DNA of 64,000 bases. Source: Defluviimonas salinarum (lineage in GTDB: Bacteria > Pseudomonadota > Alphaproteobacteria > Rhodobacterales > Rhodobacteraceae). The notes under the pieces were generated by a model. That model was not told where the DNA came from. It made no database searches and saw nothing but the letters and a program-made list of their open reading frames with translations. A program made the position numbers and the translations under genes. Of this stretch, positions 3,410 to 45,867 are shown one piece after another. The stretch spans positions 62,001 to 126,000 of the forward strand of contig NZ_JAPDOG010000013.1 of NCBI RefSeq assembly GCF_026013545.1. The letters are read 5' to 3'. How positions within the stretch are numbered: position 1 is the stretch's first letter; every line of letters starts with the position of its first letter.

Positions 3410-4699
3410 TCAGGCCGTGGCCTTTGCCAGCGCCTGGTCGAGATCGGCGATGATGTCGTCGGCATCCTCGATCCCGATCGACACCCGGACCACGTTCGGC
3501 GCCGCGCCCGCCGCCTTCTGCTGCTCGGGCGAGAGCTGGCGGTGGGTGGTCGAGGCCGAGTGGATGATCAGCGAGCGCGTGTCGCCGAGGTTGGCGACAT
3601 GGGAGAAGAGATCGAGCGAATTGACGAGCTTCACGCAGGCCTCGTAGCCGCCCTTCACCGCGAAGGTGAAGAGTGCCCCCGCGCCCCTCGGATAAAGCGT
3701 CTGGGCGCGCTCGTAATAGGGCGAGGAGGGCAGGCCGGCATAGGTGACGTAGTCGACGCGCGGGTCGTTCTCGAGCCACTCGGCGACCTTCTTCGCGTTG
3801 GCCACGTGGCGCTCCATCCGCAAGCTGAGCGTTTCGATGCCGAGAAGCGTGTAATGCGCGCCTTGCGGGTTCATCGTCATGCCGAGGTCGCGCAGGCCGA
3901 TGGCGATCGAGTGGAAGGTGTAAGCGAGGGGCCCGAAGGTCTCGTGGAACTTCAGCCCGTGATAGGCGGGCTCGGGTTCGGAGAGCGAGGGGAACTTGCC
4001 CGATTTCGACCAGTCGAACTTGCCTGAATCGACGATCGCGCCGCCGGTGACGGTGCCGTTGCCGGTGAGGTACTTGGTGGTCGAGTGGACGACGAGCGTC
4101 GCGCCCATTTCGATCGGCCGGCAAAGCCAGGGCGTGGCCGAGGTGTTGTCGACGATCAAGGGCACCCCGACCTTGTCGGCGACTGCGGCGAGGGCAGGGA
4201 TGTCGGTGACATAGCCGCCGGGATTGGCGATCGATTCACAGAAGATCGCGCGGGTCTTGTCGTCGACGGCGGCCTCGACCGCGGCAAGGTCGTCGGTGTC
4301 GACGAAAGTTGCCGACCAGCCGAACCGCTTGATGGTCTGGGAGAACTGGGTGACGGTGCCGCCGTAGAGCCGCGTCGAGACGACGATGTTGCAGCCCGGC
4401 CCCATCAGCGGGAAGAGCGCCATGATCTGCGCCGCGTGGCCCGACGAGCAGCAGACCGCGCCCTGGCCGCCCTCGAGCGTGGCGATGCGTTCGGCCAGCG
4501 CGGCGACGGTCGGGTTGGTCAGCCGCGAATAGATGTAGCCCACTTCCTGCAGGTTGAAGAGCGCGGCGGCGTGGTCGCTGTCGCGAAAGACATAGGCGGT
4601 GGTCTGGTAGATCGGCACCTGACGCGCGCCGGTGGCGGGGTCGGGGCGGGCGCCGGCATGGATCTGCAGCGTGTCGAAACCGTAGGACTTGGCCATCAT
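3410..4699 (-). CDS. metY: O-acetylhomoserine aminocarboxypropyltransferase (sulfhydrylase)
   Basis: A 429-residue PLP enzyme of the Cys/Met metabolism family. It makes homocysteine (or methionine) from O-acetylhomoserine and sulfide (or methanethiol) in the cytosol. The start MAKSYGFDTLQIHAGARPDP is typical of the family. The PLP lysine lies in HSTTKYLTGNGTVTGG and the cofactor-ring stacking region in SSGHAAQIMAL. The 429 residues match MetY rather than the shorter MetB/MetZ group. ATG 4699 and 4696 are adjacent, with GGAG just upstream. It appears monocistronic. Cystathionine gamma-synthase is the main alternative, but the length and N-terminus favour MetY. Confidence 0.9.
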   Translation of the reverse strand: MMAKSYGFDTLQIHAGARPDPATGARQVPIYQTTAYVFRDSDHAAALFNLQEVGYIYSRLTNPTVAALAERIATLEGGQGAVCCSSGHAAQIMALFPLMGPGCNIVVSTRLYGGTVTQFSQTIKRFGWSATFVDTDDLAAVEAAVDDKTRAIFCESIANPGGYVTDIPALAAVADKVGVPLIVDNTSATPWLCRPIEMGATLVVHSTTKYLTGNGTVTGGAIVDSGKFDWSKSGKFPSLSEPEPAYHGLKFHETFGPLAYTFHSIAIGLRDLGMTMNPQGAHYTLLGIETLSLRMERHVANAKKVAEWLENDPRVDYVTYAGLPSSPYYERAQTLYPRGAGALFTFAVKGGYEACVKLVNSLDLFSHVANLGDTRSLIIHSASTTHRQLSPEQQKAAGAAPNVVRVSIGIEDADDIIADLDQALAKATA

Positions 4700-42811: not shown

Positions 42812-43243
42812 TCAGCGCAACCCGATCTCGGCCAGCGCCAGCGCCATTTCCTCCGGCAGCGCCGTATCGGCCTCCCGCGCCTTCGGCAGGTCGCGCGGTG
42901 CGTCCTTTGGCTCGAGATAGCGCCAGCCCTGGAACGGCCGCCGCGGTGCCGCCTCGGTGCGCACCACCTCCGGGTCCATGACGATGCCGCAGCGCCGGAT
43001 CCCGTCCGCCCCCTCGATCTCGTCGAGCCTGAGGATCCGCTGGCGGCAGAGGATCACCCCCTTCACCACCCAGTAGAGCGAACCGCCCGCCAGCACCTCG
43101 GCCTCGCGCTTCGGCCACATCCGCGTGACATGGCGCCGCTCGCCGGTCGGGTAGGGCGCGGGATGCGTGCGCTGCCAGTCGAGGAGATCCTCGACACTCT
43201 CCGCACCGACACAGAGCTTCAGAAGATGAAGAGACTCGGCCAT
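42812..43243 (-). CDS. DUF1489 family protein
   Basis: A 143-residue cytosolic protein that opens MAESLHLLKLCVGAESVEDL and contains THPAPYPTGERRHVTRMWPK, both characteristic of the alphaproteobacterial DUF1489 family. The function is unknown. It is divergent from nrdJ, with 113 bases between the starts. GGGGGTG lies before ATG 43243. Confidence 0.85.
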   Translation of the reverse strand: MAESLHLLKLCVGAESVEDLLDWQRTHPAPYPTGERRHVTRMWPKREAEVLAGGSLYWVVKGVILCRQRILRLDEIEGADGIRRCGIVMDPEVVRTEAAPRRPFQGWRYLEPKDAPRDLPKAREADTALPEEMALALAEIGLR

Positions 43244-43356
43244 GACACCCCCAAGACCTTGCCATTCTACCCGCGCCACCCCCGAGATCAAGTTGACCGG
43301 CCCGGCGCCCAAGCGTATCGTGATCGCCCCTTCCGATACCCGAGGACCGAGGCCCG

Positions 43357-45867
43357 ATGACCCGTTTCGCTGCCCCCATCGCCGAACAGATCTGGGACAT
43401 GAAGTACCGCTTCAAGGAGGCGGACGGCACCCCCGTCGACGGCACGGTCGAGGACAGCTGGCGCCGCATCGCCCGCGCCCTTGCCGCCGTAGAAAAGGAT
43501 CCCGCCCGGTGGGAGGACCGCTTCTACACCGCGCTCGAGGATTTCAAGTACCTCCCCGCCGGCCGCATCACGGCGGGCGCCGGCACCGGGCGCACGGTCA
43601 CGCTCTTCAACTGCTTCGTCATGGGCACGATCCCCGACGACATGGGTGGCATCTTCGACGCGCTGAAGGAAGCCGCGCTGACCATGCAGCAGGGTGGCGG
43701 CATCGGTTACGATTTCTCTACCATCCGGCCAAGGGGGGCCGAGGTGAAGGGCGTCGCGGCCGATGCCTCGGGGCCCCTCTCGTTCATGGATGTCTGGGAC
43801 GCGATGTGCCGCACGATCATGTCGGCCGGCTCGCGGCGCGGCGCGATGATGGCGACGATGCGCTGCGACCACCCCGATATCGAGGCCTTCATCGCCGCCA
43901 AGCAGGACGCCGCGCGGCTCCGGATGTTCAACCTTTCCGTCCTCGTCACCGATCCGTTCATGGCGGCGGTCAAGGACGGCAAGCCCTGGGACCTCACCTT
44001 CGACGGCAAGGTCTACAAGACCGTCGAGGCGCTCGACCTCTGGAACCGGATCATGCGCGCGACCTACGACTACGCCGAGCCGGGCGTGATCTTCATCGAC
44101 CGCATCAACGCCGCCAACAACCTCGGCTACGCCGAGACCATCGCCGCCACCAATCCCTGCGGCGAGCAGCCCCTGCCGCCCTACGGCGCCTGCCTCCTCG
44201 GCTCGATCAACCTCGCCCGCCTCGTGACAGACCCGTTCGGCAAGGGCGCGGCGCTCGACGAGGGCGCGCTGGATGATCTCGTCACGACCGCGGTGCGGAT
44301 GATGGACAACACCGTCGACGCCTCGCGCTTCCCGCTGCCCCAGCAGAAGGCCGAGGCCGAGGCCAAGCGCCGCATCGGCCTCGGCGTCACCGGGCTCGCC
44401 GACGCGCTGCTCATGGTCGGCCTCCGCTACGGCTCGGAAAAAGCCGCCGTGCAGACCGAGGAATGGATGCACCGCATCGCCCGCGCCGCCTACCTCGCCT
44501 CGGTCGAACTCGCGAAGCAGAAGGGCGCCTTCCCGCTCTTCGACGCGGAAAAGTACCTCGCCTCGGGCAACATGATGCAGATGGACGCCGACGTGCGCGC
44601 CGCGGTCGCGGAACACGGCATCCGCAATGCGCTCCTGACCTCGATCGCCCCCACCGGCACGATCAGCCTCTATGCCGGCAATGTCTCGTCCGGGATCGAG
44701 CCGGTCTTCGCCTATGCCTACAAGCGCAAGGTCCTGCAGAAGGACGGCAGCCGCACCGAGGAGGAGGTCGTCGACTACGCCGTCCAGCTCTGGCGCGAAC
44801 GCTTCGGCGACAGGCCGCTGCCGGAGCATTTCGTCAACGCCCAGACCCTGCCGCCGCTCGACCACGTCCGGATGCAGGCGGCGGCGCAGAAATGGGTGGA
44901 TTCGTCGATCTCGAAGACCATCAACTGCCCCGAGGAGATCAGCTTCGAGGCCTTCAAGGACGTCTACATGGCGGCCTGGGACCAGGGCTGCAAGGGCTGC
45001 ACCACCTACCGGCCCAATGAAGTTACCGGCAGCGTCTTGAGCACTTCCGAGGAGAAAAAGCCGGAGTTGCCAGTTTTCTCGGAGCCATTCGAACGTTTGA
45101 AATGGGCACGTTCAAAGAAGAACCTAACGCTTGCAAATATAGCGGAAAAGGTTGGCTACTCTGTGCCGCACTTGTCTCAGCTAGAGTCCGGCATCAAGAA
45201 ACTTACCCCTTCCGGGGCGGAAAAGTTTGGGCAGCTGTACTCGTTGCCCAAGGGTTGGCTCCTCTTCGGTGAAGGGGGCGATGCTCCCGAAGTCCTCTCA
45301 AAAGACGGCGCCGAACCCCTCACGCCGCATGGCGACGTCGTCTATCTCTCCGAACCCTTGGACCGGCCGCAGGCGCTTGAAGGCGCGACCTACAAGCTGA
45401 AATGGCCCGACAGCGAGCACGCGATCTACATCACCATCAACGACATCGTGCAGGGCGGCCACCGGCGCCCCTTCGAGGTCTTCATCAACTCCAAGAACAT
45501 GGAGCACTACGCCTGGACGGTGGCGCTGACGCGGATGATCTCCGCCGTCTTCCGCCGCGGCGGCGACGTCTCCTTCGTCGTCGAGGAACTGAAAGCCGTC
45601 TTCGACCCGCGCGGCGGCGCCTGGATGCAGGGCCGCTACATCCCCTCGATCCTCGCCGCGATCGGCGGCGTCATCGAACGCCACATGATTGCGATCGGCT
45701 TTCTCGAGGGCGAGGGCCTCGGCCTCAAGTCCGACCCCAAATCGCAGGTCGTCGCGGTCGGCGAAGCACCCCGCGGCCCGACCTGCCCCTCCTGCGGCCA
45801 GTTCGGCATGCAGATGATCGAGGGCTGCCTGACCTGCCCGAATTGCGGCCATTCCAAGTGCGGATGA
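43357..45867 (+). CDS. nrdJ: Adenosylcobalamin-dependent ribonucleotide reductase with inserted HTH segment
   Basis: An 836-residue class II RNR that reduces ribonucleotides using adenosylcobalamin. Marks: Cys86 in TLFNCFVMG, the finger-loop NPCGEQPLPPYGACLLGS (Cys268, Glu270), APTGTISLYAGNVSSGIEP, and a C-terminal zinc-type Cys cluster (CPSCGQFGMQ, CPNCGHSKCG). Between the CKGCTTYRPN stretch (residue about 554) and DVVYLSEPLDRP (about 657) lies an extra roughly 90-residue segment with a Cro/C1-type helix-turn-helix. Without it the protein would have the usual length of about 750. The frame is intact throughout. A strong terminator lies 88 bases after the stop. Confidence 0.95.
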   Translation: MTRFAAPIAEQIWDMKYRFKEADGTPVDGTVEDSWRRIARALAAVEKDPARWEDRFYTALEDFKYLPAGRITAGAGTGRTVTLFNCFVMGTIPDDMGGIFDALKEAALTMQQGGGIGYDFSTIRPRGAEVKGVAADASGPLSFMDVWDAMCRTIMSAGSRRGAMMATMRCDHPDIEAFIAAKQDAARLRMFNLSVLVTDPFMAAVKDGKPWDLTFDGKVYKTVEALDLWNRIMRATYDYAEPGVIFIDRINAANNLGYAETIAATNPCGEQPLPPYGACLLGSINLARLVTDPFGKGAALDEGALDDLVTTAVRMMDNTVDASRFPLPQQKAEAEAKRRIGLGVTGLADALLMVGLRYGSEKAAVQTEEWMHRIARAAYLASVELAKQKGAFPLFDAEKYLASGNMMQMDADVRAAVAEHGIRNALLTSIAPTGTISLYAGNVSSGIEPVFAYAYKRKVLQKDGSRTEEEVVDYAVQLWRERFGDRPLPEHFVNAQTLPPLDHVRMQAAAQKWVDSSISKTINCPEEISFEAFKDVYMAAWDQGCKGCTTYRPNEVTGSVLSTSEEKKPELPVFSEPFERLKWARSKKNLTLANIAEKVGYSVPHLSQLESGIKKLTPSGAEKFGQLYSLPKGWLLFGEGGDAPEVLSKDGAEPLTPHGDVVYLSEPLDRPQALEGATYKLKWPDSEHAIYITINDIVQGGHRRPFEVFINSKNMEHYAWTVALTRMISAVFRRGGDVSFVVEELKAVFDPRGGAWMQGRYIPSILAAIGGVIERHMIAIGFLEGEGLGLKSDPKSQVVAVGEAPRGPTCPSCGQFGMQMIEGCLTCPNCGHSKCG
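45040..45306 (+). other. In-frame XRE-type helix-turn-helix segment inside nrdJ, lower GC than its host
   Basis: Residues about 562-650 of NrdJ. The core FERLKWARSKKNLTLANIAE, then KVGYSVPHLSQLESGIKKL, then KFGQLYSLPKGWLLFGEG is a complete Cro/C1 domain: helix 1, turn, recognition helix with SQLESG, and the WLL-GEG ending typical of phage-type repressors. By hand count, 45061-45240 has 92 G/C of 180 (51%), against clearly higher GC in the flanking nrdJ sequence. Codon use shifts too (TTG, AAA, GTT, ATA). It interrupts a linker, not the catalytic barrel. The role is unknown. Confidence 0.85.

Follow-up and report, generated by a model that had tools for sequence, protein, structure and literature searches.

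A helix-turn-helix domain, exchanged between relatives, in the linker of a class II ribonucleotide reductase of the Rhodobacteraceae

Introduction

What would a repressor-type DNA-binding domain do inside a ribonucleotide reductase (RNR)? The question is raised by nrdJ in a 64,000-nucleotide stretch of the Defluviimonas salinarum genome (contig NZ_JAPDOG010000013.1, positions 62,001 to 126,000), which we call the window. An earlier note, made from the letters of this DNA, had read a complete Cro/C1 helix-turn-helix (HTH) placed in frame in the linker of the enzyme, and had named regulation of its own gene and a role as tolerated passenger among the explanations. Our comparison with related genomes and with phages points, tentatively and with a little less than even confidence, to NrdJ as the carrier of an exchangeable HTH cassette that would bind operator-like DNA in pairs, at targets outside the nrdJ promoter.

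Results and Discussion

The reductase and its inserted domain

Judged by sequence, the window NrdJ is a working class II RNR, B12-dependent by family. It is full-length (578.9 bits against TIGR02504, cut-off 399.95), has the all-alpha, barrel and TSCPD domains of Pfam, and its barrel finds Thermotoga maritima NrdJ (1xje, 30% identity) as best Foldseek match. Across a 35-row NrdJ alignment the finger-loop motif N266 P267 C268 G269 E270 and cysteines 810, 813, 824, 827 and 830 are invariant, Cys 835 nearly so. The barrel, the NPCGE finger loop, the IscU-like TSCPD domain and the C-terminal cysteine cluster are thus held in common with the dimeric class II RNR NrdJ (TIGR02504; T. maritima 1xje), to which the window protein adds an HTH domain in the linker before TSCPD. 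The parts of the gene are as follows.

43357..45867, forward strand: nrdJ, adenosylcobalamin-dependent ribonucleotide reductase with inserted HTH, 836 aa (open reading frame and profile matches)
43609..45009, forward strand: catalytic barrel, residues 85-551 (PF02867, 3e-124)
45022..45042, forward strand: 5' flank of the cassette, codons of residues 556-562 (synonymous codons common to HTH-bearing genes)
45040..45336, forward strand: exchangeable segment of linker, HTH and downstream linker, residues 562-660 (comparison of homologues)
45085..45267, forward strand: HTH domain, residues 577-637 (HTH_3 match, AlphaFold2, Foldseek)
45391..45687, forward strand: TSCPD domain, residues 679-777 (PF12637, 3.7e-11)
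45784..45864, forward strand: C-terminal cysteine cluster, Cys 810, 813, 824, 827, 830 and 835 (35-row alignment)

A search of the whole protein with HTH_3 (PF01381), which the earlier note had proposed for residues 560-650, gave a match at residues 581-619 (E 3.2e-5; score 24.3 bits, gathering score 23), and E fell to 2.4e-6 when only the 117-aa segment was searched. AlphaFold2, run on the 35-row alignment (mean pLDDT 77, pTM 0.64), places helices at 577-588, 592-599, 603-611, 618-628 and 632-637, with block means of pLDDT of 87-92 for residues 571-630 and 80 for 631-640; confidence is low at 558-568 and 642-668, to the two sides of the domain. In this model the HTH is a separate five-helix domain carried on two linkers predicted to be disordered, between the barrel and the TSCPD/cysteine tail. 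Modelled alone, the segment reaches pLDDT 83-90 across the helices, and Foldseek finds it to resemble DdrO, SinR, 434 Cro and P22 c2, although E falls below 0.001 in one hit only; the fold is lambda-repressor-like, with a TM of 0.85-0.90 on target for the DdrO N-terminal domain, 434 Cro and P22 c2. The profile match and the predicted domain bear out the in-frame Cro/C1 HTH of the earlier note, and its hand count of 51% GC lies close to the 52% computed for 45037-45276, against 65-72% in upstream windows of the NrdJ body. The domain is like the CI/Cro-type repressors DdrO, SinR, 434 Cro and P22 c2 in sequence profile and predicted five-helix fold; unlike them, it is internal to an enzyme in which a Pfam search found no S24/LexA-like or other repressor C-terminal domain.

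Occurrence and exchange of the cassette

Our sample of 295 genomes (294 genera) was drawn from the family, and a search at the level of the order yielded members of the same family only. This NrdJ is present in 265 of the 295, at least 34 of which have an HTH at the same place. Within the genus (22 genomes), NrdJ carries an HTH in 8 and a short linker in 11, and is unreadable in 3. Among the named loci, six NrdJs from Rhodospirillales or other Alphaproteobacteria showed no HTH, the linkers being read in L123, L125, L126, L127 and L134; the sixth, L117, comes from a Rhodobacterales MAG. Since most genera do without it, the cassette is dispensable, and its absence from most genera counts against the reading that we favour.

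Linker length is bimodal: 105 of 155 distinct linkers have 40-89 residues, 50 have 120-169, and none lies between. A cassette profile built from 58 cassettes matches all 50 long linkers, which are mostly its own training sequences, and none of the 105 short ones; HTH_3 is matched by 55 of the 58 cassettes at E up to 0.01 (25/26 and 30/32 in two sets). At this place, homologues show a short linker or a different HTH and nothing in between, not the unrelated low-complexity linker that the earlier note had allowed for. In one case (L115) a Gly-Glu repeat run, GEGEGEGE, stands directly behind the HTH.

Between relatives the HTHs differ far more than the enzymes that carry them. Median pairwise identity is 23% for the HTH core and 84% for the body (Spearman 0.02, p 0.48, 1176 pairs), and 49 HTHs fall into 26 groups at 50% single linkage. 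Congeners may be 96% identical in the body and 21% in the HTH (L010 and L011), or 94% and 18% (L008 and L013), while the HTH of L009, from the genus of the window, is 70% identical to that of L189, from another genus, and 32% to that of the window. Members of one HTH group lie far apart on the body tree, where the smallest clade that unites a group has 37 to 148 of the 153 tips, and within one genus L374 differs from L380 and L381 by a clean in-frame presence or absence of the HTH. As the sequences read, one species has the cassette, another lacks it and a third has an unrelated HTH in its stead, and the rest of the enzyme stays the same.

Composition, selection and relatives of the cassettes

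The cassettes retain a foreign codon usage: HTH cores have a GC3 of 0.593 against 0.843 in the bodies, uncorrelated with that of the host (rho 0.15, p 0.31). As a control, HTH-less linkers proved somewhat low as well (0.754 versus 0.811), linker GC3 lying under every 240-nt body window in 40 of 104 HTH-less genes versus 45 of 49 with an HTH; the low value of HTH-less linkers counts against the favoured reading. The impression of the earlier note that the segment was acquired with frame and flanks intact is supported by its low GC3, by HTH-associated codons in the 5' flank (see below) and by HTH-less alleles in congeners. In ten within-group HTH pairs pS was 0.46-0.85 and pN 0.13-0.29, several dS values being saturated, and HTH pS exceeded body pS in eight pairs and was about equal to it in two group-D pairs involving L104. 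By these values, with pN far below pS, the HTH fold is under purifying selection and within-group divergence is old. The turn and recognition helix (GLNATAVYDILKGKSK type) are strongly conserved within group B.

Within the 295 family genomes the eight best non-self matches of the window HTH core are all NrdJ-borne, as are the best matches of an L099-type core; for an L109-type core the first three are NrdJ-borne, after which free-standing proteins alternate with NrdJ. A 616-aa frame in G253, among the L109-type matches, has no NrdJ linker motif. That the window and group-A cores are nearest to NrdJ-borne HTHs and not to free-standing repressors counts against the favoured reading. So does a search of 50,697 phage records with three cassettes, in which the window core matched 8 records, repressors of CI-like and other types, at 32-44% identity, the L099-type core matched 14 records at 38-46% and the L109-type core had no match. 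PHROG matches of the cassettes are mostly phage transcription regulators, and free-standing regulators of 109-112 aa on IMG/VR contigs share 10-14 of 16 turn-plus-recognition-helix positions with group-B cassettes, against 7-11 of 21 positions in helices 1-2; for the window's own cassette IMG/VR yielded no such free-standing regulator. By this pattern of matches, the NrdJ-borne HTHs form a pool that is akin to regulators of phage type, and a phage-related role of the cassette is possible.

Phages as carriers of NrdJ-HTH fusions were considered and rejected: the cassette profile matched none of the 52 phage-contig NrdJs with a readable linker, in a set of 62 loci of which 10 had no readable linker and from which the more distant L288-L298 and L300-L306 were left out. 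For plasmid NrdJs, near matches that span 89-95% of the query in two pieces suggest that these, too, have no HTH. Several phage-contig NrdJs are unusual in other ways. The frames in L283, L284, L285, L287 and L269 are 1063-1155 aa long, some 300-390 longer than usual, perhaps through inteins. Short phage NrdJs (L239-L247, L250, L253, L255 and others) end soon after the linker start in a cysteine-containing GACELRVDPETGQLIRSCE-type tail, without TSCPD and the cysteine-cluster tail; L028 in G019 also stops early in a similar way. PADLOC gave no defence-system match beyond generic HTH: its hits, over residues 579-637 only, were to HTH_VI and to the HTH portion of RmrA models.

Proposed function

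On the reading that we favour, the cassette is an exchangeable specificity module, probably one that binds DNA, carried by a second class II RNR and directed at targets elsewhere. The NrdJ dimer, or a larger oligomer induced by dATP or dGTP, would present the HTHs in pairs. The class II RNR of S. nassauensis, whose C-terminal cluster is the same, is reported to form tetramers and hexamers with dATP or dGTP (PMC5704485), and oligomerisation of this kind would pair the HTHs in a dNTP-dependent manner. Paired HTHs could then bind operator-like DNA, as CI/Cro-type repressors do, at targets presumed to lie outside the nrdJ promoter. The driver of cassette change would probably be a moving DNA target, for which mobile elements such as phages are candidates.

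Type I restriction specificity subunits (HsdS) have a conserved scaffold with exchangeable DNA-recognition domains. NrdJ may be likened to them in this respect, and exchange of its cassette would alter which DNA is bound, much as swaps of target-recognition domains do there. There is, however, no sequence relation, the NrdJ scaffold is a metabolic enzyme, and its DNA recognition is putative. In a stronger form of the proposal, phage-type repressor domains would plug into the linker, the dNTP-responsive oligomer would display them as interchangeable operator-binding domains that silence invading phages or mobile elements, and diversifying selection would act on their exchange between species; we consider this form quite unlikely.

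An alternative, possible but unlikely, is that the HTH fold has a structural role without DNA binding: in oligomerisation, in tail spacing, or in contact with a partner protein, for instance a further HTH protein. Cyanase and methylphosphonate synthase, like the window NrdJ, have an XRE-like HTH-type fold inside an enzyme, and to our knowledge these folds do not bind DNA. The HTH-type domains of these two enzymes are fixed and conserved, whereas those of NrdJ are exchanged between close relatives. The cassettes have profile matches to methylphosphonate synthase (6b9s) and to Pfam CYNS_N and a fold match to a cyanase structure, and Stl-dUTPase complexes among the fold matches are cases in which an HTH repressor interacts with a nucleotide enzyme. 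Moreover, 10 of 51 HTH cores, including 4 of 5 in group D, are net negative, which argues against DNA binding for some of them. A structural role, however, has no need for wholesale replacement by unrelated HTHs, and the recognition helices show conservation both inside groups and towards regulators of phage type.

The same low likelihood attaches to a tolerated passenger or selfish cassette, where the disordered linker would merely accept insertions and HTH segments would spread by homologous recombination at conserved flanks. Presence is patchy: on the body tree, HTH presence or absence takes 36 changes to explain, where shuffled labels take 41.5 on average (as low in 10 of 300 shuffles), and thus has only weak phylogenetic signal, and for 26 of 49 HTH-bearing tips the nearest tip is HTH-less. 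Flank-guided exchange is suggested by common 5' codons, TTG at L561 being found in 31 of 50 HTH-bearing genes versus 14 of 105 HTH-less ones and AGT at S562 in 26 of 50 versus 3 of 105, in rows that are related, so that p values are optimistic; the window nrdJ has TTG but AGC at S562. These codons fit exchange by homologous recombination with the flank carried along. Some phage-contig NrdJs (L229, L273) have other, long non-HTH insertions in the same linker, as an accepting linker would. Against a passenger stand the nature of the insert, HTH-type in nearly all cases (55 of 58 by HTH_3), and a frame open in all readable cases but one (L373; G030:C3:466000-471500), in which it is lost in the linker after the HTH through a frameshift, either genuine or a sequencing error. 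The passenger role raised by the earlier note is weakened by this near-constancy of type and by the purifying selection on the cassettes.

Upstream region, neighbouring genes and other reductases

The features upstream of nrdJ, and a further reductase of the genome, are as follows.

43244..43356, forward strand: nrdJ upstream region, 113 bp, common to the divergent gene (congener comparison by eye)
43249..43295, forward strand: two 16-bp motifs 31 bp apart, 43249-43264 and 43280-43295 (congener comparison)
42812..43243, reverse strand: divergent neighbour gene (neighbourhood comparison)
G000:C1:297398-301075: long class II RNR, PRK07562 type, elsewhere in the window's genome

Autoregulation would have NrdJ bind this promoter via the HTH, with dNTP-driven oligomerisation switching repression on. 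The tetramers reported for the S. nassauensis enzyme on dATP/dGTP (PMC5704485) make such a dNTP-sensing repressor mechanically plausible, and one 8-mer, CTACAATA, is marginally enriched upstream of HTH-bearing nrdJ (31/48 versus 30/103, permutation p 0.035, uncorrected for relatedness). However, the upstream region is conserved by eye in congeners with and without HTH, though their HTHs differ totally, and in five HTH groups no group-specific 8-mer was found in the 200 bp upstream (p 0.47-0.89). Of 68 genomes, 66 encode the general RNR repressor NrdR, whether or not they have the HTH, and the window's genome is among them. We regard autoregulation as improbable, and the suggestion that the reductase controls its own gene is not supported. 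Tethering of the enzyme to DNA, the third role named in the earlier note, is possible.

NrdR would likewise link RNR and DNA binding; it is, unlike the cassette, a separate protein encoded beside NrdJ, and its domain types (zinc ribbon, ATP-cone) were absent from the window NrdJ in a Pfam search. The 16-bp motif pair, seen in congeners with and without HTH, resembles an NrdR box pair and is a candidate for one. The divergent gene is presumably DUF1489-like, and its homologue adjoins nrdJ in 17 of 18 HTH-bearing and 53 of 61 HTH-less named loci. Since the upstream region looks the same with and without HTH, has no group-specific 8-mer and is bordered by like neighbours, the target of the proposed DNA-binding cassette, if any, is probably elsewhere.

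Two further candidates were discarded. A partner gene was sought within 8 kb around nrdJ by clustering the downstream open reading frames of 18 HTH-bearing and 61 HTH-less named loci, and the best cluster occurred in only 3 of the 18. A separate HTH-tail protein made from an internal start was set aside after inspection by eye of 50 cassettes, in which no in-frame start codon ahead of the HTH proved to be conserved. In L013 a tRNA-like stretch lies about 50-190 bp upstream of nrdJ, between conserved promoter elements and the gene; ARAGORN did not call it and found a tRNA-Gly downstream at 4095-4168.

A long (1222-position) class II RNR of the PRK07562 type accompanies the HTH-type NrdJ in all 68 genomes, 35 with and 33 without the HTH, so that the HTH-bearing NrdJ is not the sole RNR. 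The window's genome also has a second NrdJ (L414 4464-6899, G000:C14) with a short linker and no HTH, 85% identical to the window NrdJ over residues 2-570 and only 55% in the tail.

An assembly artefact, which the earlier note had allowed for, or chance similarity has negligible probability: the genome assembly is in 88 contigs and no support for either was found, HTHs stand at the same place in at least 34 family genomes and 8 congeners, and an artefact is excluded by the recurrence of this architecture across many independent genomes.

Novelty and significance

Word searches of the main text of PMC9669993, on insertions and extensions in the RNR family, and of PMC9531940, on RNR phylogeny, found 'HTH', 'helix-turn-helix' and 'DNA-binding' zero times in each. 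At the level of titles and abstracts, a scope outside which most subscription papers and bioRxiv preprints fall, the searches turned up no RNR with such an HTH design. The earlier note's statement that no such RNR had been described therefore holds for the literature searched, but the design is not a one-off: it turns up again and again in the family, each time with other HTHs.

A metabolic enzyme on which DNA-binding cassettes are exchanged may turn out to be a new kind of arrangement. Near-constant catalytic parts combined with a DNA-binding domain replaced at one site would be an unfamiliar coupling of dNTP synthesis to DNA, and silencing by NrdJ cassettes, if true, would be innate immunity built on an enzyme of nucleotide metabolism. 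Dozens of HTHs on one scaffold offer a natural panel for asking whether an RNR acts as a DNA-binding protein, and the cassettes raise the question of which target forces such rapid exchange.
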